Below, piece by piece: positions 34,412 through 57,028 of a DNA stretch of 64,000 nucleotides; the stretch's first letter is position 1; every line of letters begins with the position of its first letter. The stretch covers positions 682,001 to 746,000 of the forward strand of contig NZ_CP107551.1 of the NCBI RefSeq assembly GCF_025837095.1. Direction: 5' to 3'. The stretch comes from Rhodococcus sp. Z13. Its GTDB lineage: Bacteria; Actinomycetota; Actinomycetes; Mycobacteriales; Mycobacteriaceae. Under the pieces are notes generated by a model. It had not been told where the DNA came from. It searched no databases and saw only the letters and a list, made by a program, of their open reading frames with translations. The position numbers and the translations under genes were made by a program.

Positions 34412-34447
34412 AGCGACCCTGTCCCTCCGAGCGATCCGAGGTGGAAT

Positions 34448-37486: not shown

Positions 37487-37499
37487 GCTCCCGCGGATC

Positions 37500-39278
<1,779 letters not shown>

Positions 39279-39282
<4 letters not shown>

Positions 39283-40388: not shown

Positions 40389-40753
40389 GTGCGCGCCGCC
40401 GCCTTCCTCCGCTGCAGCACGGCACCGACCGCGTTGTCGAGCTTCGAGCCCAGCGGCCAGCCCACGTAGTGGCACAGGAACAGGGCGATCTCGCGGAGCT
40501 GCTGCTCGTCGAGTTCCTCGTTCTTCAGGGCCGCCTCGATCTGGATCTCGGCGATGTCGGTGGCGCCCTGCGCGGTGAGCGCCCCGAGCAGCAGCAGCCG
40601 GCGGTCGCGGATGGTCAGCCCCGGCCGGGTCCAGATGTTCGCGAACAGGTGGTCGGCGGTGACGGCGAAGTGCTCGCCGGGACCGTCCTGCATCTCCCAG
40701 CCGTAGACCTTGGACATCATCTCCAGGCCGCGGCGGCGGGTCTCGTCGGTCAT
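40385..40753 (-). CDS. Carboxymuconolactone decarboxylase-like protein (Rv0771-like)
   Basis: This 122-residue helical protein has the AhpD/CMD fold: TIRDRRLLLLGALTAQGATD, then EELDEQQLREIALFLCHYVGWP. The CxxC of AhpD is absent; a single Cys lies in FLCHYVGW. A ring-opening or lactone decarboxylase role is inferred from the family only. Its ATG 40753 overlaps the stop of the dehydrogenase gene as ATGA. It corresponds in place to Rv0771. Confidence 0.85.
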   Translation of the reverse strand: MTDETRRRGLEMMSKVYGWEMQDGPGEHFAVTADHLFANIWTRPGLTIRDRRLLLLGALTAQGATDIAEIQIEAALKNEELDEQQLREIALFLCHYVGWPLGSKLDNAVGAVLQRRKAAART

Positions 40754-42408: not shown

Positions 42409-43881
42409 TCAGGAAGTGGCGGGTTCGGCGACGAGCTTGGTCTCCAGGTACTCCTCGAAACCGGCCACGCCCATCTCGCGGCCGATCCCGGACTGCTTGT
42501 AACCACCGAACGGCGCGTCGGCGGCGTACCAGATGCCGCCGTTGACGCCGAGCGTGCCGGTGCGCACCCCGGCGACGACCTTCGCGATGCGGTCCGGGTC
42601 GGTGCCGTAGACCGCGCCGGACAGGCCGTAGGGGGAGTCGTTGGCGATGCGGACGGCGTCGTCGTCGCCGTCGTGGGGGAGTATCACCAGCACCGGGCCG
42701 AAGATCTCCTCCTGCGCGGCCCGCGCCGTGTTGTCGAGACCGGTGATCAGGGTGGGTTCGACGTAGAAGCCGCGGTCGTGCTCGGCGGGCCGGCCGCCGC
42801 CGGTGACGATCGTGCCGCCCTCCTCGACGGCGAGGCGGATGTAGCCCTCCACCCGCTGCCGCTGCTTCTCGGAGATGAGCGGTCCGCACACGGTGCCGGG
42901 ATCGCGCGGATCGTCGGGCCGGATCCCGCTCATGGACTTCGCGGTGAGTGCGACGGCCTCGTCGTAGCGCTCGCGGGGGACGACCAGGCGGGTGGTGATG
43001 GCGCAGCCCTGGCCCGCGTGGGTGCAGACGGTGAAGGCGGCCATCGAACACGCGCTGCGCAGGTCGGCGTCGTCGAGGACGAGGAAGGCCGACTTGCCGC
43101 CGAGTTCGAGGAAGACCTTCTTGAGCGTGCCGGAGGCCGCGCGCATCACGGCGCGGCCGGTCGCGGTGGACCCGGTGAACGAGATCAGGTCGACGCGCGG
43201 ATCCTCGCTCAGTTGCGCGCCGAGAGCGTGGTCGCTGGAGGTGACGATGTTCAGCACCCCGGGCGGGATGTCGGTCTCCTCCGCGGCGATCCTCCCCACG
43301 AGCGCGGCGCACCAGGGGGTGTCGGGTGCGGGCTTGAGGACGACGGTGCTGCCGGCGGCCAGAGCCGGGCCGAGCTTGGCGAAGTTGATCTGGTGCGGGA
43401 AGTTCCACGGCGTGATCGCCCCGACGACCCCCACGGCTTCCTTGAGCAGGTAGCGGTGTGTCGGGATGCCCATGGGCGCGGCGTTGCCGAGGTCCTGCCG
43501 CCACTCGTAGTTCTCGGCGAGATCGGCGAAGTAGAGCAGGTCGTCGATCGGGCCCTCGAGATGCGCTGCGCTCGTGAGGAATCGGGGTGCGCCGACCTCG
43601 GCGATGGTGATCTCGCGCAGTTCCTCGATGTGCTCGCGCAGGGCGTCGCGCAGCTGCCGCAGGCACCGGGCGCGGAAGGCGTGGTCCCGGGACCAGTCGG
43701 TGTCGTCGAAGGCGCGCCGCGCGGCGGCGATCGCCGCATCCATGTCGGCGGCGGTGCCCTCCGCGGCGTACCCGAGGAGTTCCTCGTTGCTCGGGTCGGT
43801 GACGGCGAAGGTGCCGCCGCTGCCGGGGACGAGTTTGCCGTCGATCAGGAGAGTGGAGCTGTCGGTGGGGCGAAGTGTCAT
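42409..43881 (-). CDS. aldA: Aldehyde dehydrogenase (Rv0768/AldA-like)
   Basis: This 490-residue NAD(P)-dependent aldehyde dehydrogenase has the N-terminal cofactor fold with ITPWNFPHQINF and FTGSTATGRAVM. The general-base Glu lies in FLELGGKSAFLVL and the nucleophile is Cys293 in AGQGCAITTRL. EEIFGPVLVI and SPYGLSGAVYG are conserved. It heads the minus-strand operon from the start at 43881 behind operator site A and a TTGCCT-18-TATAGT promoter. It turns aldehydes from the P450/SDR steps into acids. Confidence 0.93.
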   Translation of the reverse strand: MTLRPTDSSTLLIDGKLVPGSGGTFAVTDPSNEELLGYAAEGTAADMDAAIAAARRAFDDTDWSRDHAFRARCLRQLRDALREHIEELREITIAEVGAPRFLTSAAHLEGPIDDLLYFADLAENYEWRQDLGNAAPMGIPTHRYLLKEAVGVVGAITPWNFPHQINFAKLGPALAAGSTVVLKPAPDTPWCAALVGRIAAEETDIPPGVLNIVTSSDHALGAQLSEDPRVDLISFTGSTATGRAVMRAASGTLKKVFLELGGKSAFLVLDDADLRSACSMAAFTVCTHAGQGCAITTRLVVPRERYDEAVALTAKSMSGIRPDDPRDPGTVCGPLISEKQRQRVEGYIRLAVEEGGTIVTGGGRPAEHDRGFYVEPTLITGLDNTARAAQEEIFGPVLVILPHDGDDDAVRIANDSPYGLSGAVYGTDPDRIAKVVAGVRTGTLGVNGGIWYAADAPFGGYKQSGIGREMGVAGFEEYLETKLVAEPATS

Positions 43882-43896
43882 CGGACTTCCCTCAGT

Positions 43897-43914
43897 TCTG
43901 GACAGGTGTCTGGA
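43897..43914 (-). promoter_or_regulatory. Operator site A and promoter of the aldA operon
   Basis: The palindrome reads TCTGGACAGGTGTCTGGA. On the minus strand the promoter -35 TTGCCT (43938-43943) is 18 bases from -10 TATAGT (43914-43919), so the operator covers the transcription start. The same 18-base sequence, with one centre base changed, overlaps the promoter of the TetR-CYP123-CYP51 operon. Confidence 0.75.
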
Positions 43915-43966
43915 CTATAGTTCGACACCGCGACCGAAGGCAACGGTTCGCCCGGAAAAGAGCGAA

Positions 43967-44014
43967 ACCGGTGTTGTTCGCGAAAAATTCGAGAATATCG
44001 CGAACAACACCGGT
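43967..44014 (-). terminator. 17-bp dyad downstream of the MpaB-like gene
   Basis: Arms ACCGGTGTTGTTCGCGA (43967-43983) and TCGCGAACAACACCGGT (43998-44014) are perfectly complementary, with a 14-base AT-rich loop. It lies 24 bases after the minus-strand stop at 44038 and before the aldA promoter. The best guess is a terminator; the long loop leaves room for an operator. Confidence 0.55.
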
Positions 44015-44037
44015 CTCGATAGGTCCCGGCGGGGCGG

Positions 44038-44868
44038 TCAGAACACGCGCAGACCGAGCCGTCGTCGCGTCCGCATGTCCACGAGGTAGATCTTCCACAG
44101 CAGCGGCCAGAACCACGGGGTCATGCGGTGGATCCGGCGCACCGCGGCGAGATACCGGTCGAAGCGGCGCTGGTCGTCGGGGGTCCACTCGTAGTGCATG
44201 AGGTCGCGGAACTCCGGTGGCAGGGCTCCGCGGGTGACGAGTTCGAAGGGCCTGCCGAGCAGCCGGTGCAGCAGCCGGCCGAGCCGGCCGAGACGGATCT
44301 CGAGGAAGCTCAGATCGCACAGGGCCGTGAGGTATTCGCGTACCTGGTCGTTCATCGAGATGTCGGCGGCGCCGGCCTTCCACAGTTCCTCGTACTCCTC
44401 GCGGGTCGTGGGCCACGACTCCGGGCGGACGTTCAGGGTGGTGGCGAGGGGCGCGCCGGCGCGCAGGACCCGTGTGTACTGCTCGTCGGTGAGCGGGCCG
44501 TAGAGGAACTCGTGCTGGTCGACGAAGTACTTGAAGAGGCAGACCGCCACCCACAACTGCAGAGTGGGGGAGTTGGCGCTGTAGCGCACCGGGGAGCCCG
44601 GCCTGGAGGTGACCCGGGCGTGGATCCTCCGAACCGACTGTCGCACGAAGTCGCGGTCGTCGTCGTTGCCGAACACCGCGACCGCGAGATAGGTGCCGGT
44701 GGTGCGGGCCCGCTTGACCGGGCGGAGGTCGGCCCGGCCGGAATCGACCTCGCTCTCCACCACGCCTTGGCCGACACCGGGATGCGCCAGCTGCATGATC
44801 ACGTTGGCGGCGTTGATCGTGCCCCCGAGGGGTGAGACGAGGTCGCCGAGAGTGTCGATCGTCCGCAT
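44038..44868 (-). CDS. MpaB-like oxygenase (DUF2236)
   Basis: This 276-residue helical protein of the MpaB/Lcp-like DUF2236 family, heme-dependent in studied members, was read from ATG 44868. GGAGG lies five bases upstream; ATG 44880 is possible but has no such site. Blocks include LGGTINAANVIMQLAHPGVG, KYFVDQHEFLYGPLTDEQY and TTLNVRPESWPTTREEY. The family includes MpaB' of mycophenolic acid synthesis and latex-clearing oxygenases. It may cleave a long isoprenoid or steroid side chain, but that is inference. It is 45 bases from the TetR gene in the same direction and probably co-regulated by it. Confidence 0.8.
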   Translation of the reverse strand: MRTIDTLGDLVSPLGGTINAANVIMQLAHPGVGQGVVESEVDSGRADLRPVKRARTTGTYLAVAVFGNDDDRDFVRQSVRRIHARVTSRPGSPVRYSANSPTLQLWVAVCLFKYFVDQHEFLYGPLTDEQYTRVLRAGAPLATTLNVRPESWPTTREEYEELWKAGAADISMNDQVREYLTALCDLSFLEIRLGRLGRLLHRLLGRPFELVTRGALPPEFRDLMHYEWTPDDQRRFDRYLAAVRRIHRMTPWFWPLLWKIYLVDMRTRRRLGLRVF

Positions 44869-44913
44869 GGCTGCCTCCATCTGAAGACGGACGTGTTCAG
44901 TTCTGCTGCCACT

Positions 44914-45510
44914 CTAACGCGAACGGGTGGTGTCCGGGCAAGCCCCGGCGAGCGCGCCGCGCACGACGGTCTCGTAGATGCGGTCGAGTTCGACCTCGTC
45001 GCCGAGGAAACCGCTGCTCTCGAGCACCGCGAATCCGTGCAGGGCGGCGAACATGCCGACGGCCGTCTCGAGGGTGCGTTCCTCGGGAACGCCGCAGGAG
45101 GCGAGCATCGTGCGCAGGGCGACGTTGGCGTCGAGAGCGGCCGCGAGGAGGCCGTCGCGGTCCACCGGGGCCGTGGTCAGGGCCCGGTACCGCTGGGGAT
45201 GGCCGGTGGCCCACGCGCGGTGGGCGTCGATGAGGGCGCGCAGTCCCTCCGGGCCGCTGCGCCCCATGGCGACCTCGCGCAGGTGTGCGCCCAGTTCGGT
45301 CATGGCGGCGATCTGCACGGCGGCACGGACGTCGTCGAGATTGCGGACGTGGTTGTAGAGCGAGGCGGCGACGACGCCCAGGCGCGACGACAGGGTACTC
45401 ATCGTCAGCGCTTCCCAGCCGAGTTCGTCGACGATCTCCACGGCGGCGGCGACCACCTTGTCTCGGGTGAGCGTGCGCCGGCGGACCGGTCGCGAACTGT
45501 CACGTGCCAT
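44914..45510 (-). CDS. TetR regulator with WHG domain
   Basis: This 198-residue TetR protein has the DNA-binding N-terminus (RRTLTRDKVVAAAVEIVDELG, then VVAASLYNHVRNLDDV). A TetR_C_33-type WHG domain with AHRAWATGHPQRYRAL follows near 95. It is divergent from the P450 gene at 45600, and the 89-base gap holds a dyad ACGAAT-GGT-ATTCGT that is its likely operator. It may control the P450 and the downstream MpaB-like gene. Ligand unknown. Confidence 0.85.
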   Translation of the reverse strand: MARDSSRPVRRRTLTRDKVVAAAVEIVDELGWEALTMSTLSSRLGVVAASLYNHVRNLDDVRAAVQIAAMTELGAHLREVAMGRSGPEGLRALIDAHRAWATGHPQRYRALTTAPVDRDGLLAAALDANVALRTMLASCGVPEERTLETAVGMFAALHGFAVLESSGFLGDEVELDRIYETVVRGALAGACPDTTRSR

Positions 45511-45560
45511 GAAACGAGTCTAAGGGTCTTCCATTCCAAACGAATGTGAGTAGCTTGTAA

Positions 45561-45575
45561 ACGAATGGTATTCGT
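45561..45575. promoter_or_regulatory. Dyad between TetR (44914) and P450 (45600) genes
   Basis: ACGAAT-GGT-ATTCGT is a perfect 15-base dyad in the divergent promoter region. A further half-site AACGAATG begins about 25 bases to the left. It is unlike the GGACA-type operator nearby and is probably bound by the adjacent TetR protein. Confidence 0.6.
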
Positions 45576-45599
45576 AAACCCGTCCACGAGGGTGCATCC

Positions 45600-46826
45600 A
45601 TGACCACATCCCACATCCGTCTCGACGACGCCGACGTCTACACCCGGGGCGTCCCCCACGAACACTTCGCCGAACTGCGCCGCACCTGCCCGGTCCACCG
45701 GCAGCACAGCGAGAACGGTTCCGACTTCTGGGCGGTCACCCGCCACGCCGATGTGATCGCCGTGTCCCGCGACAGTGCCACCTTCTCCTCCGCGCTCGGC
45801 ACGACCCAGATCGACGACTTCGACGAGGAGACCCGGCTCAAGCAGGCCGCGATGCTGCTCAATCTCGATCCGCCCGACCACACCCGGTTGCGGCAGCTCG
45901 TCAGCCGCGGTTTCACCCCGCGGACGATCAAGACGCTCGAGGATCGGATCCGCGAGATCTGCGACCGCACCGTGGGCGAGGCGGTCGAGGCCGCCCGCGA
46001 CGGTGCGGTGATCGACTTCGTGCCCGCGATCTCCGCGCCTCTGCCGCTCGAGGTGATCGCGGCGCTGCTCGGAGCCCCCGCCGAGGATGTCGGCAAGCTC
46101 TACGACTGGTCCAACCGGATGATCGGCTGGGACGATCCCGAATACGGCACCACCCAGGAGGACGGCGAACTCGCCGCCGCCGAGATCTTCCTGTACGCCA
46201 ACGAGATCGCGGCGCAACGGCGTGCCGAACCGCGCGACGACATCGTCTCGAAGCTGGTGCTCCCCGACGAGCACGGGGACACGCTCACCGAGATGGAATT
46301 CGACATGTTCTTCGTGCTGCTCGTCATCGCGGGTAACGAGACCACACGCAACGCCATCTCCGGTGGCATGCAGGCCTTCGTCGACCACCCGGACCAGTGG
46401 CGGCGACTGCAGGAGCATCCCGAGCTGATCCCGAACGCGGTGGAGGAGATCCTGCGCTGGGTGACTCCCGTGGTCGGTTTCCGGCGTACCCCGACCTGCC
46501 CGGCCCGCATCGGCGACCAGCAGGTCGAACGGGGCGACAAGGTGATCCTGTACTACCCGAGCGCGAACCGTGACGAGGAGGCCTTCGAGGATCCGGACGT
46601 CTTCGACATCGGGCGCGACCACAATCCGCACGTCGCCTTCGGTGGCACCGGGGTCCACTTCTGCCTCGGCGCCCACCTGGCGCGTCTCGAGCTGCGGGTG
46701 ATGTTCGAGACCCTGATCGACCGCATCGACCGGGTCGAGCCCGCGGGGGAGCCGAGTCGGCTGCGGTCCAATTTCATCAACGGCATCAAGTCCATGCCGG
46801 TGCGGATACATCCGCGGCAGACGTGA
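45600..46826 (+). CDS. Cytochrome P450 (CYP125/126/142-like)
   Basis: This 408-residue soluble bacterial P450 resembles the CYP124-CYP126-CYP142 sterol-binding group. The I-helix motif is AGNETTRN near residue 245 and ExxR is EEILRW near 285. Cys355 in FGGTGVHFCLGAHLA is the heme thiolate. LNLDPPDHTRLRQLVSRGFTP is typical of the C-helix region. Start ATG 45600 is 89 bases from the divergent TetR gene. It would need the ferredoxin at 50879 or another donor. Side-chain or ring hydroxylation of a steroid or lipid is inferred from neighbours. Confidence 0.88.
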   Translation: MTTSHIRLDDADVYTRGVPHEHFAELRRTCPVHRQHSENGSDFWAVTRHADVIAVSRDSATFSSALGTTQIDDFDEETRLKQAAMLLNLDPPDHTRLRQLVSRGFTPRTIKTLEDRIREICDRTVGEAVEAARDGAVIDFVPAISAPLPLEVIAALLGAPAEDVGKLYDWSNRMIGWDDPEYGTTQEDGELAAAEIFLYANEIAAQRRAEPRDDIVSKLVLPDEHGDTLTEMEFDMFFVLLVIAGNETTRNAISGGMQAFVDHPDQWRRLQEHPELIPNAVEEILRWVTPVVGFRRTPTCPARIGDQQVERGDKVILYYPSANRDEEAFEDPDVFDIGRDHNPHVAFGGTGVHFCLGAHLARLELRVMFETLIDRIDRVEPAGEPSRLRSNFINGIKSMPVRIHPRQT

Positions 46827-46853
46827 ATTCGCCGCTCGGGCCGGATTCGGGCA

Positions 46854-46882
46854 TTGCCGACCCCGCATGGCTGTAGTAATGT
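46854..46882 (+). promoter_or_regulatory. Promoter of the TetR-CYP123-CYP51 operon
   Basis: -35 TTGCCG (46854-46859) and -10 TAATGT (46877-46882) are 17 bases apart. An ATG at 46879 lies inside the -10, so the protein most likely starts at GTG 46903, about 14 bases after the expected transcription start. Confidence 0.6.
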
Positions 46883-46899
46883 CCAGACACGTGTCCAGA
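46882..46899 (+). promoter_or_regulatory. Operator site B, TetR-CYP51 operon
   Basis: The sequence TCCAGACACGTGTCCAGA is, on the other strand, TCTGGACACGTGTCTGGA. That equals site A except at one centre base. It overlaps the -10 and start point of the TetR gene and suits autorepression. Confidence 0.75.
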
Positions 46900-46902
46900 A
46901 AC

Positions 46903-47472
46903 GTGAATCTCGAATCGACCCGCCGCCGCCTGACCGAGAGGCAGGCCGACACGGTTGCGCGACTCACGCAGGCCGCCGTCGAAGTGCTGCGCGAGGAGAA
47001 GTTCACGGGTCTGACCGTCCGGATGGTCGCCGCTCGTGCGGGGGTGGCCCCGGCCACCGCCTACACCTACTTCTCGTCCAAGGAACACCTGATCGCCGAG
47101 GTGTTCTGGCGGCGGCTGGCCACCGCACCCACCGCCGACGCGGCGGAAGCGGAGGGCACCGACCGCGCCGATCGCGTGGTGGCCGTACTGAGGGGTATCG
47201 CCCTGCTGTTGGCCGACGAACCCGAGCTCGCGGCGGCCGTCACCAGCGCACTGCTCGGGCAGGACCCCGACGTCGAACACCTTCGCGGGCGCATCGGCCT
47301 GGACATCCGCAACCGGATCGCCGAGGCCCTCGGCCCCGACCACGACCCGGACGAACTCGAAGCACTCGAACTGCTCTACGCCGGCGCTCTCGTCCGCGCC
47401 GGAATGGGTTACGGCACATACGAAAGGCTCGCCGACAGGCTGGAGAGATCAGCCCGACTGTTATTGGAGTGA
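46903..47472 (+). CDS. TetR regulator (Rv0767c-like)
   Basis: This 189-residue TetR protein has the helix-turn-helix region RLTQAAVEVLREEKFTGLTV and APATAYTYFSSKEHLIAEVF. The C-terminal ligand domain runs from about 85. Start GTG 46903 is preferred because longer starts overlap the promoter and operator B. Three bases separate its stop from the CYP123 start, so it is cotranscribed with the CYP51 operon. It is the prime candidate for binding sites A, B and possibly C. In M. tuberculosis Rv0767c has the same place. Confidence 0.83.
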   Translation: MNLESTRRRLTERQADTVARLTQAAVEVLREEKFTGLTVRMVAARAGVAPATAYTYFSSKEHLIAEVFWRRLATAPTADAAEAEGTDRADRVVAVLRGIALLLADEPELAAAVTSALLGQDPDVEHLRGRIGLDIRNRIAEALGPDHDPDELEALELLYAGALVRAGMGYGTYERLADRLERSARLLLE

Positions 47473-47475
47473 TCC

Positions 47476-48735
47476 ATGATTCAGGCCTTCCCGGACTCCG
47501 CGCCCGCCGCGGGGTCCGCCTCGCTCGACCCGCCCACGTTCGACCCTCTCGTCTTCAATCCCTACGACTACTCCTTCCACGACGACCCGTATCCCACCTA
47601 CCGGCGCCTCCGTGAGGAGGCTCCGCTCTACTACAACCCCGACCTCGACTTCTGGGCCCTGTCCCGGCACGCCGACGTGGTGGCCGCCTTCCGCGACAAC
47701 ATCCGCCTCTCCAGCGCCAACGGCGTCTCGCTCGATCCCGCCGCCTACGGCCCGAACGCGCACAAGGTCATGTCCTTCCTTGCGATGGACGACCCGCGCC
47801 ACATGCGCATGCGCCGCCTCGTCTCCAAGGGGTTCACCCCCCGCCGCGTCGCCGATCTCGAGGACCGCATCCTCGAACTGACGCTCCGCTATCTCGAACC
47901 CGCCCTCAGTGCAGGCGAATTCGACTGGATCGCCGAGGTCGCCGGCAAACTTCCCATGGACGTCATCTCGGAACTCCTGGGGGTACCCGAGGCGGACCGG
48001 GCGGAGATCCGCCGGCTGGCCGACCTCGTCGTCCACCGCGAGGAGGGCGTGCTCGACGTGCCGGTCGCGGCGATGGAGGCGTCCCTGCATCTGGTGGGTT
48101 ACTACGCCGACATGCTCGCCGAGCGTCGCAGGAAGGAGGCTTCCGACCTCACCTCGGCCTTGCTCGCCGCCGAGATCGACGGCGACCGCCTCACCGACGA
48201 CGAGATCATCGGTTTCATGTTCCTCATGGTGGTCGCCGGCAACGAGACCACCACCAAACTCCTCGGCAACGCCCTCTACTGGGGGGCGCACAACAAGGAC
48301 GAAGTGGCACAGGTCCTCTCGACCCCGGACCGCGCCCCGGACTGGGTCGAGGAAACCCTCCGCTACGACACCTCCAGCCAGATCGTCGCCCGCACCGCGG
48401 TCGAGGACATCACCCTGTACGACAGCACCATCCGCGCCGGCGACAAGGTACTGTTGCTCATCGGCTCGGCCAACCGCGACTCCGAGGTGTTCGACGCCGC
48501 CGACGACTTCCGGATCGGCCGCGACAGCTCCCAGAAGATCGCCAGCTTCGGCGGGGGAGTGCACTTCTGCCTCGGCGCCCACCTCGCGCGACTCGAGGCG
48601 AACATCGCGCTCGAGCAGTTCGCCCGTCGCGTCGCCGACTACGAGATCGACGAAGAGAACTGCGTCCGAGTGCATTCCACGAACGTTCGAGGCTTCGCAG
48701 CCCTACCTGTAAAGGTCACCGCACGCCATGCCTAG
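47476..48735 (+). CDS. cyp123: Cytochrome P450 CYP123
   Basis: This 419-residue P450 is close to M. tuberculosis CYP123 (Rv0766c); PYDYSFHDDPYPTYRRLREE and AMDDPRHMRMRRLVSKGFTP match well from memory. The I-helix has AGNETTTKLLGNALYWG, ExxR is EETLRYD, and the heme Cys365 sits in FGGGVHFCLGAHLARLE. Its stop overlaps the next SDR by eight bases. The natural substrate of CYP123 is not known. It presumably shares the ferredoxin encoded three genes downstream. Cytoplasmic. Confidence 0.9.
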   Translation: MIQAFPDSAPAAGSASLDPPTFDPLVFNPYDYSFHDDPYPTYRRLREEAPLYYNPDLDFWALSRHADVVAAFRDNIRLSSANGVSLDPAAYGPNAHKVMSFLAMDDPRHMRMRRLVSKGFTPRRVADLEDRILELTLRYLEPALSAGEFDWIAEVAGKLPMDVISELLGVPEADRAEIRRLADLVVHREEGVLDVPVAAMEASLHLVGYYADMLAERRRKEASDLTSALLAAEIDGDRLTDDEIIGFMFLMVVAGNETTTKLLGNALYWGAHNKDEVAQVLSTPDRAPDWVEETLRYDTSSQIVARTAVEDITLYDSTIRAGDKVLLLIGSANRDSEVFDAADDFRIGRDSSQKIASFGGGVHFCLGAHLARLEANIALEQFARRVADYEIDEENCVRVHSTNVRGFAALPVKVTARHA

Positions 48736-49513
48736 ATTCGAACCCCATCCCGCCCGGCGCCCCGCACTCATCGCCGGGGCGTCCTCCGGAATCGGCACCG
48801 CCACGGCCTACGCCCTCGCGGAGGCCGGGCATCCCGTCGCCCTCGGTGCGCGCCGCGTCGACGAGTGCGAGGCCATCGCCGCCAAGATCCGTGACGAGGG
48901 AGGCGAGGCCTTTGCGCACTTCCTCGACGTCTCGTCCACCGACTCGGTCGACGAGTTCGTCATCGCCGCCGAGCAGGCCCTCGGCCCGGCGGAGATCGTC
49001 GTCTCCGGTGCCGGCGACATGGACTTCGCGTTGCCCCACGAGATGGACCCGGATCGCTTCGCCTTCCAGGTGAACGTCCACCTCATGGGCACACAGCGCC
49101 TGGCGCACCGGGTGCTGCCCGGCATGATCGAACGCACCCGCGGCGACTTCGTCGTCATCGGATCCGACTGCGCCGTGATCCCCCGACCCTGGATGGGTGC
49201 CTACAACGCCGCCAAGACCGGGCTCGAAGCCCTCGTCCGCGAGATGCGGATGGAACTCGAGGGCACCGGCGTCCGCGCATCGGTGGTGCGCCCGGGCCCG
49301 ACGCAGACCGGAGCCGGCATGAACGCCCCGGCGGAGGTCCTCGAACCGATGCTCGAGGACTGGGGGCACTGGGGTTTCGCACGTCACCCCTACTTCCTGC
49401 GCGCATCCGACATCGCCGCGGCCGCCCTCACGGTCGTCTCCGCCCCCCGCGGCGCCCACATCGTGCTCATCGAGGTGCAACCCGAAGCACCCCTGCGGAA
49501 GGACAATCCATGA
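48728..49513 (+). CDS. Short-chain dehydrogenase (Rv0765c-like)
   Basis: This 261-residue SDR has the cofactor motif AGASSGIGTATAYALAEAG near residue 16 and GARRVDECEAI after strand 2, suggesting NADP. The catalytic region is SDCAVIPRPWMGAYNAAKTG, with Tyr and Lys. It lies between CYP123 and CYP51 with an eight-base overlap on the left and an ATGA overlap on the right, matching Rv0765c. A role in oxidising the hydroxyl or aldehyde made by CYP51 is inferred from the gene order. Confidence 0.9.
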   Translation: MPRFEPHPARRPALIAGASSGIGTATAYALAEAGHPVALGARRVDECEAIAAKIRDEGGEAFAHFLDVSSTDSVDEFVIAAEQALGPAEIVVSGAGDMDFALPHEMDPDRFAFQVNVHLMGTQRLAHRVLPGMIERTRGDFVVIGSDCAVIPRPWMGAYNAAKTGLEALVREMRMELEGTGVRASVVRPGPTQTGAGMNAPAEVLEPMLEDWGHWGFARHPYFLRASDIAAAALTVVSAPRGAHIVLIEVQPEAPLRKDNP

Positions 49514-50868
49514 CCACACTCGTCGAACCCCGGAGTGTGTCCGGCGGCGAACACGAACACGGCCACCTCGAAGAACTGCGCACCGACCCGATCGGGCTCA
49601 TGCGCCGCGTCCGGGAGGAGTGCGGCGACGTCGGGGTCTTCCGGCTCGCCGACAAGAAGGTCGTGCTGCTCTCCGGCGCGGAGGCCAACGAGTTCTTCTT
49701 CCGGGCCGGAGACGAGGAACTCGACCAGTCGGCCGCCTACCCGTTCATGAAACCGGTCTTCGGCGAGGGCGTCGTCTTCGACGCCAGCCCGGAACGCCGC
49801 AAGGAGATGCTGCACAACTCGGCGCTGCGTGGTGAACAGATGCGAGGCCACGCCGCCACCATCGACCGCGAGGTGCAGGACATGGTGGCCGGCTGGGGCG
49901 AGGAGGGAGAGATCGACCTCCTCGAATTCTTCGCCGAACTGACCATCTACACCTCGTCGGCCTGCCTGATCGGCAAGAAGTTCCGCGACCAGCTCGACGG
50001 CCGGTTCGCCCGGCTCTACCACGATCTGGAGAAGGGAACGGACGCACTGGCGTTCGTCGACCCCTACGCTCCCATCGAGACCTTCCGGCGACGCGACGAG
50101 GCGCGCCGCGGGCTCGTCGCGCTCGTGCAGGAGATCATGTACGACCGCATCGCGAATCCGCCGCAGGGCAAGGAGGATCGCGACATGCTCGACGTCCTCG
50201 TCTCCATCAAGGACGAGAACGGCAAGGAACGGTTCAGCGCCGACGAGATCACCGGCATCTTCATCTCGATGATGTTCGCCGGGCACCACACCACCTCGGG
50301 CACCGCGGCGTGGGCGCTCATCGAGCTGCTGCGCCATCCCGAGTACATGCAGAAGGTCACCGAGGAGCTCGACGATCTGTACGCCGATGGGAAGAGCGTC
50401 AGTTTCCATGCGCTGCGGCAGATCCCGGTGCTCGAAGCGGTGCTGAAGGAGACGCTGCGTCTGCACCCGCCGCTGATTCTGTTGCTGAGGGTCGCGCGCG
50501 ACGACTTCGAGGTCGCCGGATACCGGATCGCCGCGGGCGATCTCGTGGGAGCGACACCGGCGATCTCCAACCGGATCCCGGAGGACTTCCCGGATCCCGA
50601 CGCCTTCGATCCCGGCCGCTACATCGATCCCCGCCAGGAGGACATCGTCAACCGGTGGACGTGGATCCCGTTCGGTGCCGGCCGGCACCGTTGTGTGGGA
50701 GCGGCGTTCGCGCTCATGCAGTTGAAGGCCGTATTCTCGGTTCTGCTGCGCGACTACGAGTTCGAACTGTCGCAGCCACCCGAGTCCTATCGGAACGACC
50801 ATTCCAAGATGGTCGTCCAGCTCGCCCAGCCGTGTGCCGTCCGGTACCGGCGCCGCCGGGGGAAGTGA
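49510..50868 (+). CDS. cyp51: Sterol 14-alpha-demethylase CYP51
   Basis: This 452-residue P450 is highly similar to M. tuberculosis CYP51 (Rv0764c). EHGHLEELRTDPIGLM, YPFMKPVFGEGVVFDA (substrate B-C loop) and FISMMFAGHHTTSGTA (I-helix with the CYP51-type His) are diagnostic. ExxR is KETLRLHP, and the heme Cys395 lies in FGAGRHRCVGAAFALMQ. CYP51 removes the 14-alpha-methyl group of sterols in three oxidations. Why an actinomycete that does not make sterols keeps it is an open question. The gene is followed 10 bases later by its ferredoxin. Confidence 0.97.
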   Translation: MTTLVEPRSVSGGEHEHGHLEELRTDPIGLMRRVREECGDVGVFRLADKKVVLLSGAEANEFFFRAGDEELDQSAAYPFMKPVFGEGVVFDASPERRKEMLHNSALRGEQMRGHAATIDREVQDMVAGWGEEGEIDLLEFFAELTIYTSSACLIGKKFRDQLDGRFARLYHDLEKGTDALAFVDPYAPIETFRRRDEARRGLVALVQEIMYDRIANPPQGKEDRDMLDVLVSIKDENGKERFSADEITGIFISMMFAGHHTTSGTAAWALIELLRHPEYMQKVTEELDDLYADGKSVSFHALRQIPVLEAVLKETLRLHPPLILLLRVARDDFEVAGYRIAAGDLVGATPAISNRIPEDFPDPDAFDPGRYIDPRQEDIVNRWTWIPFGAGRHRCVGAAFALMQLKAVFSVLLRDYEFELSQPPESYRNDHSKMVVQLAQPCAVRYRRRRGK

Positions 50869-50878
50869 GGGCCACGCC

Positions 50879-51073
50879 GTGAGGATCGAAGCAGATCTCG
50901 ACCTGTGCCAGGGACACGCCATGTGTTCGATGGAGGCCCCCGACGTCTTCGAGGTCCCGAAACACGGTGTGGTCCGGGTTCTTCTCGATCCCGTGCCCGA
51001 GGACCTGCGTCCGGATGCCGAGGCAGCCGTGAAGTACTGCCCCACCCAAGCGCTTCGCATCGTCGAAGACTGA
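50879..51073 (+). CDS. [3Fe-4S] ferredoxin (Rv0763c-like)
   Basis: This 64-residue ferredoxin starts at GTG 50879 with MRIEADLDLCQGHAMC. The cluster ligands are C-x5-C in LCQGHAMC and the distal Cys of YCPTQAL, giving three cysteines for a [3Fe-4S] cluster. The adjacent position to CYP51 matches Rv0763c, the known electron carrier for that P450. A reductase gene is not in view, so electrons probably come from a ferredoxin reductase elsewhere. The gene ends 14 bases before the NTF2-like gene. Confidence 0.93.
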   Translation: MRIEADLDLCQGHAMCSMEAPDVFEVPKHGVVRVLLDPVPEDLRPDAEAAVKYCPTQALRIVED

Positions 51074-51087
51074 CACCAGGAGAAGAC

Positions 51088-51639
51088 ATGGCCACGTTCG
51101 ATCGTGCCGAGCTCGACGAGATGATCGCCCGCTGGATCGACGCGAACAAGCGGGCGGAGGCCGAGGGCGACTGGAAGCCGCTCGCGGACATGTACACCGA
51201 GGACGCCACCTACGGCTGGAACTACGGACCCAAGGACGAGTTCATGGCCGTCGGCCGCGAGGAGATCCGCGAACTCGCGCTGGGGCAGGAGATGGACGGT
51301 CTGCAGGGCTGGCAGTATCCCTACCAGCAGTTCGTGGTGGACGACCGCACCGGCGACGTGATCGGTTTCTGGAAGCAGATCGCCGACGCCACCCGCGACA
51401 ACGGCGAGCACTACACCGTGCAGGGTATCGGCGGCAGCTGGTTCCGCTACGGCGGCAACTTCCAGTGGTCCTGGCAGCGCGACTTCTTCGACTTCGGCAA
51501 CGTCTCACACCTGTTCCTCGAGATGATCACCGCGGACGCGTTGACGGACGGGATGAAGAAGCGCATCGAGCGGTCGACCTCCGGTACCCGCCTGCCCGGC
51601 TGGTACCGGGTCGGCGAGTCCCCGGTACCGCTGTGGTGA
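51088..51639 (+). CDS. NTF2/SnoaL-like protein
   Basis: This 183-residue protein has the cone-shaped alpha+beta fold of the NTF2/SnoaL/ketosteroid-isomerase superfamily: EMIARWIDANKRAEAEGDWK, MYTEDATYGWNYGP and WYRVGESPVPLW at the end. Start ATG 51088 follows CAGGAGAAG. The ketosteroid isomerase dyad cannot be assigned with confidence. M. tuberculosis encodes a KSI-like Rv0760c near its CYP51, but this protein is longer. It could bind or isomerise a steroid-like product of the P450 steps. GTGA overlap leads to the next gene. Confidence 0.75.
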   Translation: MATFDRAELDEMIARWIDANKRAEAEGDWKPLADMYTEDATYGWNYGPKDEFMAVGREEIRELALGQEMDGLQGWQYPYQQFVVDDRTGDVIGFWKQIADATRDNGEHYTVQGIGGSWFRYGGNFQWSWQRDFFDFGNVSHLFLEMITADALTDGMKKRIERSTSGTRLPGWYRVGESPVPLW

Positions 51640-52907
51640 GTGCCGCGGGCACACGGCAGCCGGGCACGGGGGAGTCCTTCGCGGCGCTCTCCCGTGCCGA
51701 CCTCGCCGTGCTGGTGCCCGAACTGCTGCTGTGCGGGCAGCTCATCGACCGCTCCGGCATGGCGCACCTGATCTCGGCGTTCGGGCGGGAGGGGATGACC
51801 GCCGTCGCGATCGAGGAGTGGCAGGCCGCCTCGCCCTGGTACACCCGGCGGATGCAGCGTGCCCTCGGCTTCGAGGGCGACGACGTGGTCACGATCTTCA
51901 AGGGCATGCAGCTCGACATCGGGGCGCCGCCGCAGTTCATGGACTTCCGCTATCGCGTCCACGACCGCGACCACGGTGAGTTCCGGCTCGACCACTGCGG
52001 GGCTCTCATGGACGTGGAGCCGCTCGGCGACGCGTACGTCACTGCGATGTGCCACGACATCGAGGACCCCACCTTCGACGCCACCGCGCTGGCCACCAAC
52101 CCGCACGCCCGTGTGAGGCCGATCCACCGGCCGCCGCGCCGCCCGGCCGACCGGCACCCGCACTGCGCGTGGACCGTCACCATCGACCCGACCTACGACC
52201 CACCGCCGGTCGAGCCGCACACCGAGGCGATGGGCCGGACCGCGGCGGTCGCCGTGGAGCTGAGCCCGATCGTCCGGGAAGGTGAGGGCCGGCACGACTA
52301 TTCGGGTCCGCTGCTCGCCGACCTGCGGTTCGCGGACTTCTCGAGGTCCGCGCTCGTACGGATCGCCGAGGAGGTGTGTCTGCAGCACCACATGCTCGCC
52401 CTCGGTTTCCTCATGGCCGTGCGCAAACGCACCGACGAGGATGCGGCGCTCGACCTCACCCGCAAACAGCTCACCGGCGTCGCGGGCATCACCTCCGAGC
52501 GCATCCGCGACGCCCTCGGCCTGCCGCGCTCGTTCACCGGGCTGGCCACGCTGCTCGACATCCACCCGCTGTTCGCCCCCCGCCGGTACGTCGAGCGGGA
52601 GATCCGGCTCGACGGCGACGGCCTCGTCCTCACGATCGACCGGCGCGGCGGCGCCTTCGACGACGGTTCCTGGCCGAAAATGATCGACTCCGATCACCTC
52701 GGTCCCCTGAATGCACTGGCACGTGGGCTGGACCCGCACTTCTCCACCCGGGTGGTCGCGGAGGACGAGGACGCCCTGGTCGTCGAGGTGGTCCGGGAGG
52801 CCCGGCCGACGAAGGACTGCCCGGAAGTGGCGGTAACACGTTACAGTTCCGGCGCGTACTTCGAGTTCGCCGATCGAGGGATACCCCTGCCACTGACCGT
52901 CCTCTGA
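51636..52907 (+). CDS. Conserved protein of unknown function in the CYP51 operon
   Basis: This 423-residue protein starts at GTG 51636, overlapping the NTF2-like stop as GTGA. I recognise no named domain. Two similar-looking halves are possible: DFRYRVHDRDHGEFRLDHCG near residue 100 and LLADLRFADFSRSALVRIAE near 225. His- and Cys-containing patches (HCGALMDVEPLGDAYVTAMC near 116) could bind metal. There is no signal peptide. The fixed place between CYP51 and the cholesterol oxidase suggests a step in the same pathway. Codon use is like its neighbours. Confidence 0.65.
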   Translation: MSAAGTRQPGTGESFAALSRADLAVLVPELLLCGQLIDRSGMAHLISAFGREGMTAVAIEEWQAASPWYTRRMQRALGFEGDDVVTIFKGMQLDIGAPPQFMDFRYRVHDRDHGEFRLDHCGALMDVEPLGDAYVTAMCHDIEDPTFDATALATNPHARVRPIHRPPRRPADRHPHCAWTVTIDPTYDPPPVEPHTEAMGRTAAVAVELSPIVREGEGRHDYSGPLLADLRFADFSRSALVRIAEEVCLQHHMLALGFLMAVRKRTDEDAALDLTRKQLTGVAGITSERIRDALGLPRSFTGLATLLDIHPLFAPRRYVEREIRLDGDGLVLTIDRRGGAFDDGSWPKMIDSDHLGPLNALARGLDPHFSTRVVAEDEDALVVEVVREARPTKDCPEVAVTRYSSGAYFEFADRGIPLPLTVL

Positions 52908-52926
52908 ACCGTCCAGGAGACCATTC

Positions 52927-54522
52927 GTGAATGTCGAGCACGGGAGTCCGTCCCGCGCCCACCCGGTGTCGCGCCGTTCCTTCCTGCGCGGCGCCGTCGT
53001 CGGCGGCACCGCGGTCGCCGCCCTGTCGCTGTCGCAGATCCCGCGGGCCCGCGCCGAGGTCACCGAGGAACGGCACCGCGCCGTCGTCGTCGGTACCGGT
53101 TTCGGTGGCGCTGTCACCGCGATGCACCTCGGGCGCGCCGGGGTGCAGACCCTGGTCCTCGAACGCGGCATCCGCTGGCCCACGGGACCGAACTCCGAGA
53201 CCTTCCCTCACATGCTGCAGCCGGATCGCCGCATGTCGTGGCTGGCACCGGCCCCGGTGATGCCCGGCGTGCCACCCCTGCCGACCGAGCCGTTCACCGG
53301 GCTCATCGAGCGCATCCCCGGCAACGGGATGGACGTCATGTGCGGCGCCGGGGTCGGCGGCAGTTCCCTGACCTACCACGGTGTGACACTGCAGCCCGAG
53401 GGCCGGTACTTCGCGGCGTCGGTCTCCGAGTCGATCGACTACGACCTGCTCGACGCCGATCACTACCGACGCGTCGAACGCATGTTGCGGATCTCCACGA
53501 TTCCCGACGATCTGCTCGGGCACGAGCGGTACCGGTCGTCGCGCCAGTTCGTGGAGCGGGCCGCCGCCGAGGGGTACGAGCCGGTCCGGTCGCCGATGTG
53601 CATCGACTGGGACGTCCCGCGGCGGGAGCTCACCGGGGAACTGAAGCCCTCCTACACCACGGGCGACGTCATCTTCGGCGCCAACAACGGCGGCAAGTTC
53701 TCGGTCGACGTCACCTATCTCGCCGAGGCCGAGCGCACCGGGCACGTCACGGTGGCGCCGCTGCACCGTGTCAACGACATCGAACGGGCGCCCGACGGCA
53801 CCTGGATCGTCCACGTCGACCGGATCCACACCGACGGCACCGTTCTCGAACGCAAGCGGATCCTCACCCCGTCGCTGTTCCTCGGTGCCGGTTCGGCCGG
53901 CACCACCCGTCTGCTGGTGAAGGCCAGGGCCAGGGGACTCGTGCCGGATCTCCCGGAGGGTGTCGGCACGGGCTGGGGCAACAACGGCGACCGGGTCTTC
54001 GCGGTGACCACACCGCTGCTGAGCCCCGGCGACCACCAGGGCGGCCCGGCCTGTGTGGGGGCCCGCGACCACTCCGACACCGCCGGCCCGGTCATGATCA
54101 TCTCCGGTCCGGTGCCGTTCCCGCTCGACCTCGGCACCACGACGATGATCGGTCTCGGTCTCGTGGAGGGCCGGGGCACATGGCATTACGACGCGGTCCG
54201 CGACGATGCGGTGCTGAACTGGGATCAGACCTACGACCGTGAGCTGACCCGGGCGATCGAGGAGCGCATCCGCCGGATCGCAGGTCCTGCGGCGGTCGTG
54301 ATCGACATCAACGCCGTCGACGTCAACACCTTCCACCCGCTCGGCGGGGCGCCCTTCGGGTCGGTGTGCGACGACGCGGGCCGCGTGCACGGCCAGCGCG
54401 GGCTCTACGTCGTGGACGGCGCGAAGGTGCCCGGCTCGACGGGGGCGTGCAACCCGTCGATGACGATCGCGGCGCTCGCCGAATACGGGGCCGACGACAT
54501 CCTGCGGCGCGACTTCGCCTGA
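52927..54522 (+). CDS. GMC oxidoreductase, cholesterol oxidase-like, Tat-exported
   Basis: This 531-residue flavoprotein has a twin-arginine signal (SRRSFLRGAVVGGTAVAAL) with cleavage near ARAEV. FAD-binding VVVGTGFGGAVTAMHLG is followed by GNGMDVMCGAGVGGSSLTYHG. C-terminal HPLGGAPFG and NPSMTIAALAEYGAD hold the catalytic His and Asn of class I cholesterol oxidases. It should oxidise 3-beta-hydroxysterols to 3-keto-4-ene steroids outside the cell, making hydrogen peroxide. It is the last gene of the CYP51 operon; GTG 52927 follows AGGAGA. A convergent terminator follows. Confidence 0.92.
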   Translation: MNVEHGSPSRAHPVSRRSFLRGAVVGGTAVAALSLSQIPRARAEVTEERHRAVVVGTGFGGAVTAMHLGRAGVQTLVLERGIRWPTGPNSETFPHMLQPDRRMSWLAPAPVMPGVPPLPTEPFTGLIERIPGNGMDVMCGAGVGGSSLTYHGVTLQPEGRYFAASVSESIDYDLLDADHYRRVERMLRISTIPDDLLGHERYRSSRQFVERAAAEGYEPVRSPMCIDWDVPRRELTGELKPSYTTGDVIFGANNGGKFSVDVTYLAEAERTGHVTVAPLHRVNDIERAPDGTWIVHVDRIHTDGTVLERKRILTPSLFLGAGSAGTTRLLVKARARGLVPDLPEGVGTGWGNNGDRVFAVTTPLLSPGDHQGGPACVGARDHSDTAGPVMIISGPVPFPLDLGTTTMIGLGLVEGRGTWHYDAVRDDAVLNWDQTYDRELTRAIEERIRRIAGPAAVVIDINAVDVNTFHPLGGAPFGSVCDDAGRVHGQRGLYVVDGAKVPGSTGACNPSMTIAALAEYGADDILRRDFA

Positions 54523-54532
54523 ACCCGAACGA

Positions 54533-54568
54533 GTGTGGGTCCGGTGGCGATCACCACCGGCCCCACAC
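54533..54568. terminator. Convergent terminator
   Basis: GTGTGGG/CCCACAC and CCGGTGG/CCACCGG pair around a six-base loop with one T-C mismatch. It lies between the cholesterol oxidase stop and the KstD-like stop and may terminate both transcripts. Confidence 0.75.
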
Positions 54569-54577
54569 CTCCGGGGT

Positions 54578-56041
54578 TCAGCCCTTGGCTGCGGAGGCTC
54601 CGGCGCGGCGGCCGAAGAAGCTGCCGTCACCGAGCGAGGTGCCGCTCGCATAACCCCATGCGCACACGCCCGAGGTGCAGCGGCCCGCGGCGAACAGACC
54701 CGGGATCGGCTCACCCGAGACGTGCAGGACCTCCGAGTTCACCGAGGTGCGCAGGCCCCCGAGCGTGAAACCGGCGGTGCAGTTGCGCAGGTCGAGCGCC
54801 GCGATCGGGCTGCCGATCGGCTTGACCCACTCGCCCTTCTTGCCGAGCACCGGATCCTCACCGTGCGCGGCGTGCTTGTTGTACACCTCGACGGTGGTCT
54901 GCAGGGTTCCCTCCGGCAGTCCCATGTCGGATTCGAGTTCGGCGACTGTCTCCGCCACCCACTTGGGCTGGAATCGGAAGAACGGAGTGGAACTCGTTGC
55001 CGCGCAGCCTTCCTCGTAGGACTTCTCGTCGATGATCAGGAACGCCTGGTTGTCGTTCTTGAGCAGGGTGAGCTGGCCGATGCGTCCCGGATAGGTGTCC
55101 TCGGGGACGTACCGCTGGCCGCGGCCGTTGACGAGGATGCCGCGCGCCATGAGCTGCGGGTCGCCGAAGAAGGCGACCTCGGTCGCGTCCATGTGGGCGA
55201 GATCGGCGCCGAGGGCCTGTGCCATCCGGATCGCACGGCCGTCGTGCTCCTCGATCGCCGCGCCCGGCCGGCCCGCGAGTTGCGGGGCGTAGGCCTGCAC
55301 CATCTCCTTGTTGTACGCGAAGCTGCCGGTCGCGAGGACGACACCGCGGCGGGCCTTCACGTGGATCTCCTTGCCGTACTGCTTGGCGACGAGACCGACG
55401 ACGCGGCCGCCGGAGGCGACGATCAGCCGCTGGACGCGCACGTCGTATTCGGCCCGGACACCCAGGCTCTCCGCCACCTGCGCGAGCGGCTGCATGAGCA
55501 TGAAGCCACCGCCCTTCTCGCCGGTCCGCTTGTCCGTCATCTGCGGAACATGGCCGCGCGGAGCTGGTTTCGCGATCTCGTTGAAGGGCGCCGAGTTCTC
55601 CCCGCCGGAGTACATCAGCCCGTCGTCGCCCGGGATCTCCCAGCCCGGCTCACCCCAGAAGCTCTCCTTGAACACCACACCGTTGTCGACGAGCCACTCG
55701 TAGTGTTCGACGCTGCCGTTGCAGTACTCGGTGATCTTCTCCTCGTCGGCACCCGGCCCGAGTGCGGCGAGCATGAAGGTCTTCATGTTCTCGGGGGTGT
55801 CGTCGAAACCGAGCGCTTTCTGCAGCGGGGTACCGCCACCGAGATAGACGATCCCGCCGGACAGCGATGCGGCTCCACCCCACCCGCCGGTGCGTTCGAG
55901 CACGAGGACCTCGGCGCCGGCCCGGGCCGCCTCGATGGAGGCGGACACGCCGGCGATGCCGAAGCCCGCGACGACGACGTCGGCCTCGTGGTCCCAACTG
56001 GTGACGCGGTCGGCGGGGAGGGGATGCAGGTCGCTTGTCAT
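54578..56041 (-). CDS. KstD-like FAD-binding dehydrogenase
   Basis: This 487-residue flavoprotein belongs to the fumarate-reductase/3-ketosteroid-dehydrogenase family and resembles Rv0785. FAD-binding VVVAGFGIAGVSASIEAARAG lies near residue 21, and C-terminal GLFAAGRCTSGVCAWGYASG closes the FAD site. FMLMQPLAQVAESLGVR and RRGVVLATGSFAYNKEM are family blocks. A true delta-1-dehydrogenase role needs the catalytic Tyr pairs, which I cannot place with certainty. It follows the LLM gene by 54 bases that include short repeats, and probably shares its operator-C promoter. Confidence 0.83.
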   Translation of the reverse strand: MTSDLHPLPADRVTSWDHEADVVVAGFGIAGVSASIEAARAGAEVLVLERTGGWGGAASLSGGIVYLGGGTPLQKALGFDDTPENMKTFMLAALGPGADEEKITEYCNGSVEHYEWLVDNGVVFKESFWGEPGWEIPGDDGLMYSGGENSAPFNEIAKPAPRGHVPQMTDKRTGEKGGGFMLMQPLAQVAESLGVRAEYDVRVQRLIVASGGRVVGLVAKQYGKEIHVKARRGVVLATGSFAYNKEMVQAYAPQLAGRPGAAIEEHDGRAIRMAQALGADLAHMDATEVAFFGDPQLMARGILVNGRGQRYVPEDTYPGRIGQLTLLKNDNQAFLIIDEKSYEEGCAATSSTPFFRFQPKWVAETVAELESDMGLPEGTLQTTVEVYNKHAAHGEDPVLGKKGEWVKPIGSPIAALDLRNCTAGFTLGGLRTSVNSEVLHVSGEPIPGLFAAGRCTSGVCAWGYASGTSLGDGSFFGRRAGASAAKG

Positions 56042-56058
56042 GGTGGTCCGTTCTGGTC

Positions 56059-56098
56059 GGTGATCGGGGATCTCGGTGATCGGTGATCTCGGTGATCA
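56059..56098. repeat. 16-base tandem repeat between LLM and KstD-like genes
   Basis: Units GGTGATCGGGGATCTC (56059-56074) and GGTGATCGGTGATCTC (56075-56090), then GGTGATCA, give two and a half copies. The last part includes the LLM stop codon. It may be a slippage tract. Confidence 0.75.
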
Positions 56099-56941
56099 GT
56101 GGTGGAGCTTGGTGGCGAGCCGGTCGAGATAGGCGAGGACGTCCTCCTCGGAGCGGTCGGGGAGTCCGAAGATCACCTCGGTGACACCGGCATCCGCCCA
56201 CATCGCGAGCTGGTCCGCGTCGTAGCGACCCGCGAGAGCGAGCACCTCGGGGGTGCCGCTGCGACCGGCCTCCGCCCAGGCCTTGTGGAGACGCTGGACG
56301 TTCTCGACGACCTCGCGTTCGGTGGGGGTGGTGATCCATCCGTCGGCGTGGCGCACGATCCAGTCGAAGTTGCGGTCGGTCGAACCGGCGCCGAGGAAGA
56401 TCGGGGGGCGGGGCTGCTGAACCGGTTTGGGCCAGGCCCAGCTCGGGCCGAAGCTGACGAAGGTGCCGTCGTAGGACGCCTCCTCTTCGGTCCACAACGC
56501 CTGCATCGCCTCGAGATACTCGCGCAGGGCGGTGCGCTTCTTCTTCGGGGGCACTCCATGGTCGGCGAGTTCCTCTGCGTTCCAACCGAATCCGACACCG
56601 AAGCGCACGCGGCCGCCGGAGAGATGGTCGAGGCTCGCGATCGTCTTGGCGAGCGTGATGGGATCGTGTTCGAGGGGGAGCGCGACGGAGGTGCCCAGCT
56701 CGATCGTCGAGGTCACCGCCGCTGCGAGTCCCAGTGCCACCCAGGGGTCGAGGGTGCGCATGTAACGGTCGTCGGGCAGGGTCTCGTTGCCCGTCCCCGG
56801 GTGGGCGGATTCGCGCCTGACCGGGATGTGGGTGTGTTCGGGAACGTGGAAGCTGTCGAATCCGCACTTCTCGGCGGCTTCGGCGGCGACCTGGGGTCGG
56901 ATCCCTCGGTCACTGGTGAACAGGGTGATTCCGTGGCGCAC
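56096..56941 (-). CDS. LLM-class F420-dependent oxidoreductase
   Basis: This 281-residue luciferase-like protein starts at GTG 56941, six bases after GGAGAGGGG. MRHGITLFTSDRGIRPQVAA and FDSFHVPEHTHIPV are typical of F420-dependent LLM enzymes of the TIGR03619 type. Also seen are RVRFGVGFGWNAEELADHGV, PIFLGAGSTDRNFDWI and the closing AYLDRLATKL. It is the first gene of the operon with the KstD-like gene, behind operator site C. It likely acts on a steroid or related ketone intermediate. Confidence 0.87.
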   Translation of the reverse strand: MRHGITLFTSDRGIRPQVAAEAAEKCGFDSFHVPEHTHIPVRRESAHPGTGNETLPDDRYMRTLDPWVALGLAAAVTSTIELGTSVALPLEHDPITLAKTIASLDHLSGGRVRFGVGFGWNAEELADHGVPPKKKRTALREYLEAMQALWTEEEASYDGTFVSFGPSWAWPKPVQQPRPPIFLGAGSTDRNFDWIVRHADGWITTPTEREVVENVQRLHKAWAEAGRSGTPEVLALAGRYDADQLAMWADAGVTEVIFGLPDRSEEDVLAYLDRLATKLHH

Positions 56942-57004
56942 TATGGCCCCTCTCCTGGTGGCGACGCAAAAAATGTAACGCGTTCTATCTCGGGAGGGAA
57001 GAGG

Positions 57005-57028
57005 TTTTCCGGACAGGTGTCCGGAAAA
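57005..57028. promoter_or_regulatory. Operator site C, 24-base perfect palindrome
   Basis: Eleven-base arms TTTTCCGGACA and TGTCCGGAAAA flank a central GG. The inner 18 bases differ from site A at only two symmetric positions. It lies in the divergent region between the LLM-KstD unit and the TetR gene at 57104. A further half-site CGGACA follows at about 57031. Confidence 0.78.

Follow-up and report, generated by a model that had tools for sequence, protein, structure and literature searches.

Three copies of one palindrome, all lying within 13.2 kb, stand in the CYP51 gene cluster of the window studied here, a 64,000-nucleotide stretch of the genome of Rhodococcus sp. Z13. We propose that these copies, called operators A, B and C (Table 1), are likely the operators of TetR1 (46903-47472), a TetR regulator of the Rv0767c type encoded in the same cluster, which on sequence grounds is predicted to repress its own gene and the neighbouring ones.

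Three rare sites in one cluster

An earlier note on this DNA, made from the letters alone, had pointed to the three sites, and all of them are present where it placed them. Read on opposite strands, A and B differ by one centre base. Site C is an 18-mer within 24 bases (57005-57028); these had been described as a palindrome, and they are palindromic save for the central base pair. By scanning the window at up to 3 mismatches, we found 6 strand-matches (the 3 sites) against 0.78 expected, a number reached in 0 of 100 shuffles. In the whole genome (4,532,339 bases, one contig), scanned as the earlier note had proposed, TCYRGACASSTGTCYRGA occurs at three sites with 0 mismatches, at none with 1 and at three with 2, and the reversed control pattern gave one site at up to 2 mismatches. 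A, B and C are the sole sites at ≤1 mismatch in these 4.53 Mb, for which composition predicts 0.003 (independent bases) or 0.007 (first-order Markov) exact matches. A chance origin, already judged unlikely in the note, is rejected by the window shuffles, the genome scan and the composition expectation alike. The symmetric core GGACANNTGTCC is found at four places of the genome (reversed control 0), namely site C, positions 34396-34413 of the window and two places inside long open reading frames, and the shorter core GACANNTGTC is carried by A and B. Our data support one palindromic operator and a single regulon, as the note had it, of about 16 genes (19 with the fourth site at 34396-34413, which the note had overlooked) instead of about 20.

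The sites accompany TetR1, and site C is decayed in a genome without it

Within the genus, sites at ≤1 mismatch recur in 17 of 18 genomes, so that the conservation on which the earlier note had made its prediction depend is indeed found, and TetR1 is present in the same 17 (reversed pattern: 1 of 18). Site B is perfect in all 17 genus TetR1 loci. In the family (121 genomes), a perfect site occurs in 44 of the 77 genomes with TetR1 and in 0 of the 44 without it (Fisher p 4e-12), the reversed control matching in 2 of 121; this evidence is comparative, and related genomes are not independent of each other. The genus exception, G003, which is rated 100% complete, has neither TetR1 nor a site at ≤1 mismatch. 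It keeps an intact TetR2-LLM-FAD locus with an unchanged KstR-type site (see below), and site C has decayed in the alignable promoter, where the stretch aligned with it reads CATCCTCCCGCCTGTCCCGT versus TTTCCGGACACCTGTCCGGT in relatives such as G006. G006 also carries a fourth 1-mismatch site (TCCGGACACCTGTCCGGC, G006:C1:2977875-2977892), far from the cluster.

TetR1 has an N-terminal TetR helix-turn-helix (PF00440, 46.3 bits, cut-off 24), and its recognition stretch ATAYTYF is invariant in 28 aligned relatives. In genus g29, which we take to be Mycobacterium, TGGACANNTGTCCA lies within about 60 bases upstream of the CYP51-adjacent TetR gene in 6 of 6 genomes. Beyond the family, we found 66 TetR1 relatives in named contigs and scanned 65 of them, one being cut off at a contig end. 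A site near the TetR1 start was observed in 34 of the 65 at ≤1 mismatch and in 59 at ≤2, compared to 18 and 20 of 1300 control stretches from the same loci, some of which contain the loci's other sites. These relatives span Rhodococcus, Dietzia, Mycobacterium, Nocardia, Saccharopolyspora, Actinomadura, Nonomuraea and uncultured contigs of Frankia and Acidimicrobia type. An unbiased search for inverted repeats in 48 TetR1 upstream stretches, one of which (L078) is a contig-end artefact, ranked GGACA-N2-TGTCC first, in 20 of 48 against 0.25 expected.

Several observations weigh against TetR1 as the reader. First, G003 also lacks CYP51, which means that the whole cluster was lost and not TetR1 alone, and this loss is one event. 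Second, a perfect site is missing from 33 of the 77 family genomes with TetR1, which makes the strict pattern a narrow one, and 6 of the 65 scanned relatives have no site at ≤2 mismatches near the start (L054, L069, L080, L085, L087 and L088; the core is present in L069, and L085 starts 30 bases from the beginning of its contig). Third, G018, one of three TetR1-negative genomes checked, has one TGGACANNTGTCCA; this copy is L167 (G018:C19:50341-50354), and the genome has no TetR1 match at E up to 1e-30. Fourth, the candidate fourth site is retained in G003 without TetR1, and PMC10470581 reports that the ArsR-like Rv0576 is predicted to control Rv0762c-Rv0771 in M. tuberculosis.

This fourth point would fit a regulator coded elsewhere that reads the sites, with TetR1 as a passenger of the CYP51 cluster. 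So would the near-constant pairing of the two genes: all 70 family genomes with CYP51 have TetR1 and 7 have TetR1 without CYP51, and co-occurrence therefore cannot fully separate the regulator from the cluster. But the site stands at the TetR1 start despite differing neighbours, including in L032, L039 and L082, which have no CYP51 nearby. Since this is the usual sign of autoregulation, we consider a passenger TetR1 unlikely and retain TetR1 as the probable reader. Among the 66 loci, some of them on short contigs, CYP51 was matched in 41 and aldA in 33. On a tree of 55 rows, built to look at strict orthology of TetR1 with Rv0767c but without the Rv0767c sequence among the rows, the CYP51 neighbourhood requires 13 changes, and 6 of 500 shuffles were as low. 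The contigs of L071 and L073, titled Bifidobacterium breve, carry CYP51-cluster genes resembling those of other actinobacteria and are probably mislabelled metagenome bins.

TetR2 probably reads a separate KstR-type site beside C

The earlier note had named two TetR proteins as possible binders, those starting at 46903 (TetR1) and 57104 (TetR2). The evidence points to the first, whereas the second, a paralogue of KstR, has its own KstR-type site. TetR2 is divergent from the LLM operon and site C is in its promoter, which could suggest that it reads A, B and C, but this is very unlikely given the distribution of the gene. TetR2 occurs in 12 of the 121 family genomes and is missing from 36 of the 44 that have a perfect site (E up to 1e-55), being found in the other 8. 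Conversely, G003 has TetR2, yet no site at ≤1 mismatch and a decayed C. Also, the recognition region of TetR2 is that of KstR, most of the region of the solved KstR being kept, and the KstR-type site TGTAACGCGTTCTA, which lies 20 bases from site C and had escaped the earlier note, does not vary among all 17 TetR2 promoters of the genus. Judging from these sequences, TetR2 probably reads TGTAACGCGTTCTA, which KstR itself could bind too. The TetR2-like genes of five genomes of another genus (g24) have neither kind of site upstream; this lack of the palindrome is a further point against TetR2 as its reader, though it adds little.

In the same 17 promoters the TetR1 core is present in 16, G003 being the exception, and starts 35-37 bases from the start of TGTAACGCGTTCTA. 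The full 18-mer is found at ≤2 mismatches in 13 of them, and three of the other four (all but G003) have the core only, farther from TetR2. In L121 and L123 a second TnnAACnnGTTnnA adjoins the KstR-type site.

Two further regulators were tried and rejected as readers of A, B and C. For KstR, of which orthologues were matched in 17 genomes, all 13 loci examined have TAGAACGTGTTCTA upstream and no TCYRGACANNTGTCYRGA at ≤2 mismatches. The gene for TetR3, located between A and B, was matched in L023-L028 and L030; it had no match in L029, L038 and the Dietzia loci, which keep the sites. TetR1 and TetR2 fall below the cut-off of the KstR model NCBIfam NF033703 (48.2 and 192.4 bits, cut-off 280), and sites A, B and C do not match the KstR-type TnnAACnnGTTnnA (consensus from PMC1995591). 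The earlier note was therefore right that the cis-site is unlike the KstR consensus, but its kind is not wholly new, as Rv0767c motifs have been published for mycobacteria (PMC4482099, PMC6593523).

Promoters A and B share one anatomy

Operator B is preceded by TTGCCG and by a TAGTAATG box, and its last base lies three bases ahead of the GTG that opens the conserved TetR1 frame. Genus relatives have the same boxes and the same operator but a variable spacer. A CTATAG precedes operator A ahead of aldA, and in both promoters the -10-like box abuts or overlaps the first operator base. In all 17 genus loci the TTGC box starts 28 bases ahead of operator B. For operator A the distance is 28-29 bases in 8 of 9 relatives, L029 having no such box, and 29 in the window, which confirms the equal placement of A and B relative to a -35 and a -10 box that had been noticed in the window.

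From these positions we infer a simple mechanism. A TetR1 dimer would bind the palindrome TCYRGACANNTGTCYRGA (core GACANNTGTC). As the operator begins at the -10-like box and covers the likely start point of transcription, blocked initiation is the simplest reading for A and B, so that bound TetR1 would repress the aldA operon and its own TetR1-P450-SDR-CYP51-ferredoxin operon. At C, the TetR1 operator beside the KstR-type site may help to control the LLM/FAD-oxidoreductase operon, and TetR2 is perhaps a target as well. TetR1 is supposed to be released by a small molecule, for which a sterol-derived substrate or intermediate is the most likely kind; this choice is a guess based on expression data from mycobacteria and on CYP51 being part of the cluster.

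In Dietzia and other compact forms, aldA and TetR1 lie side by side in divergent orientation, and the gap between the two genes holds the site or sites, whereas in Rhodococcus an insert of variable size separates them. Such an insert would explain why the near-twins A and B flank it. Their near identity and this position could also suggest that the three sites are recent copies of each other without regulatory role, but the sites are retained while the flanks vary, related sites precede TetR1 in other families, and G001 keeps both of its sites about 65 kb apart (assigned to A and B by orientation and position). We regard recent copying as barely conceivable, and operators read by TetR1 as the better account.

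A candidate fourth site

Site D, the core at 34396-34413, lies before a glycosyltransferase operon and is, on sequence grounds, a candidate only. A counterpart of this cassette (64-66% identity to that of the window in L039) is found near a TetR1 relative in the mycobacterial loci L039, L032 and L082, and its promoter carries a perfect operator that follows a box of the CTATAG or TTATAG type. In the genus the D core is intact in 9 of 17 glycosyltransferase promoters, including that of G003, hence its status. A further TetR gene (219 aa, 32999-33658) lies upstream of the operon as a possible reader of D, and the glycosyltransferase-methyltransferase-unknown operon with a convergent methyltransferase occupies 34396-38162.

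Genes of the cluster

The operators and genes are listed in Table 1. The CYP51 protein is closest to solved sterol 14alpha-demethylases (E 4.5e-243 to 1e9x, Rv0764c), and we take the P450 at 47476-48735 to be CYP123 from its position. Two gene names of the earlier note proved loose: its "cholesterol oxidase", a GMC-type oxidoreductase, fails the model NF058674 (80.8 bits vs 850), and its "KstD-like" protein, a FAD-binding oxidoreductase, fails the 3-ketosteroid dehydrogenase (KstD) model (149.8 bits vs 789).

Table 1. Sites and genes of the CYP51 cluster (window positions; a dot marks sites without assigned strand).
Feature	Position	Strand	Remark
Operator A	43897..43914	-	15 bases upstream of aldA, directly behind -10-like box TATAGT
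Operator B	46882..46899	+	between -10-like box and GTG of TetR1
Operator C	57008..57025	.	between LLM gene and TetR2; decayed in G003
Candidate operator D	34396..34413	.	core GGACACTTGTCC; 3 mismatches to 18-base consensus; before glycosyltransferase operon; contested
KstR-type site TGTAACGCGTTCTA	56974..56987	.	only TnnAACnnGTTnnA match in window; consensus from PMC1995591
TetR1, Rv0767c-type TetR regulator	46903..47472	+	start set by conservation; proposed reader of A, B, C
TetR2, KstR paralogue	57104..57760	+	192.4 bits vs KstR cut-off 280; recognition region near that of KstR
TetR3	44914..45510	-	in insert between A and B; not general reader
MpaB/Lcp-type oxygenase	44038..44880	-	same insert
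Cytochrome P450	45600..46826	+	same insert
aldA, Rv0768-family aldehyde dehydrogenase	42409..43881	-	first gene behind A; 912.4 bits, cut-off 775
Remainder of presumed aldA operon	39279..42395	-	operon presumed from spacing
SDR, presumed aldA operon	41646-42395	-	
Hydroxyisobutyrate-dehydrogenase type, presumed aldA operon	40750-41649	-	
Presumably carboxymuconolactone-decarboxylase-like, presumed aldA operon	40385-40753	-	
LLM oxidoreductase, presumed aldA operon	from 39279	-	
P450 at Rv0766c position	47476..48735	+	
SDR oxidoreductase	48728..49513	+	
CYP51	49510..50868	+	nearest solved relative M. tuberculosis Rv0764c
Single-cluster ferredoxin	50879..51073	+	
SnoaL/NTF2-like protein	51088-51639	+	weak match, below Pfam cut-off
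Protein without family match	51633-52907	+	
GMC-type oxidoreductase	52927-54522	+	
FAD-binding oxidoreductase (NF005512)	54578..56041	-	not KstD by cut-off
LLM-class F420-type oxidoreductase	56096..56941	-	first minus-strand gene behind C
Glycosyltransferase, methyltransferase, third protein of unknown function	34445..37486	+	glycosyltransferase start set by homology; possible target via site D

Relation to known systems

The closest match is the Rv0767c system of mycobacteria, for which a palindrome has been predicted and linked to phytosterol induction (PMC4482099, PMC6593523). The Rv0767c motif of PMC4482099 has an e-value of 1.2E-14, outside the highly significant class of that paper. In Mycobacterium sp. 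VKM Ac-1817D, motif X was predicted for 14 operons, 12 of them induced >3-fold by phytosterol, and autoregulation by the Rv0767c orthologue was suggested (PMC6593523). GAC and GTC are abundant in the regions that Rv0767c binds (PMC10312376), and the ten genes Rv0762c-Rv0771 drop together to 0.14-0.25 (PMC10470581). As there, a TetR gene stands beside a cyp51-cyp123 cluster with a palindrome at its own start (site B near the TetR1 start), and the window has the same gene arrangement, TetR next to P450-SDR-CYP51-ferredoxin with aldA nearby. Motif X also precedes operons for aldehyde dehydrogenase, SDR and P450 enzymes, and twice it is accompanied by a KstR site; it differs by its 14 predicted operons, compared to 3 or perhaps 4 sites in one cluster here, and the likeness of the motifs is by description, as the published logos are figures. 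Identity to TetR1 is only about 51% for the mycobacterial TetR adjacent to CYP51 and about 68% for another relative that mycobacteria also have.

Rv0760c-Rv0771 of M. tuberculosis, in what we take to be its gene order, likewise has one arm with TetR, P450, SDR, CYP51 and ferredoxin and another with aldA, an SDR and further genes. Unlike that locus, the window has an added LLM/FAD/TetR2 module and an insert (MpaB-type gene, TetR3, P450) between the arms, which have one operator each. With the KstR system it shares a TetR repressor and a palindromic operator on steroid-type genes, with a KstR-type site close to C, but the operator TnnAACnnGTTnnA is unrelated to TCYRGACANNTGTCYRGA and TetR1 scores far below the KstR cut-off. 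We found no description of the operator in Rhodococcus in the literature searched, which covers only part of the field, and a text search for strings of the palindrome matched no paper. What is new here is the Rhodococcus case and its anatomy, the use of a loss to assign the reader, the KstR-type site next to C and the wide occurrence in Actinomycetota.

Significance

Taken as a whole, TetR1 and its palindrome may form an old, Actinomycetota-wide pair marking a CYP51-centred catabolic module, which in Rhodococcus would be wired to the KstR network through one two-operator promoter with nearly fixed spacing, the second operator being read by a KstR paralogue. We put forward this combined picture tentatively, as possible rather than established. 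If this is true, the TetR1 ligand would tell which class of substrates is handled by bacterial CYP51, an enzyme without a clear role in organisms that do not make sterols; for the M. tuberculosis enzyme the physiological role is described as unclear, a full sterol pathway being missing (PMC6469627). A defined regulator with its operator would offer a direct handle, since the molecule that frees TetR1 should point to the target of the CYP51 module, and the two-operator promoter would link this module to the KstR system. The pairing of repressor and site across distant actinobacteria could thereby help to explain CYP51 in bacteria that make no sterols.

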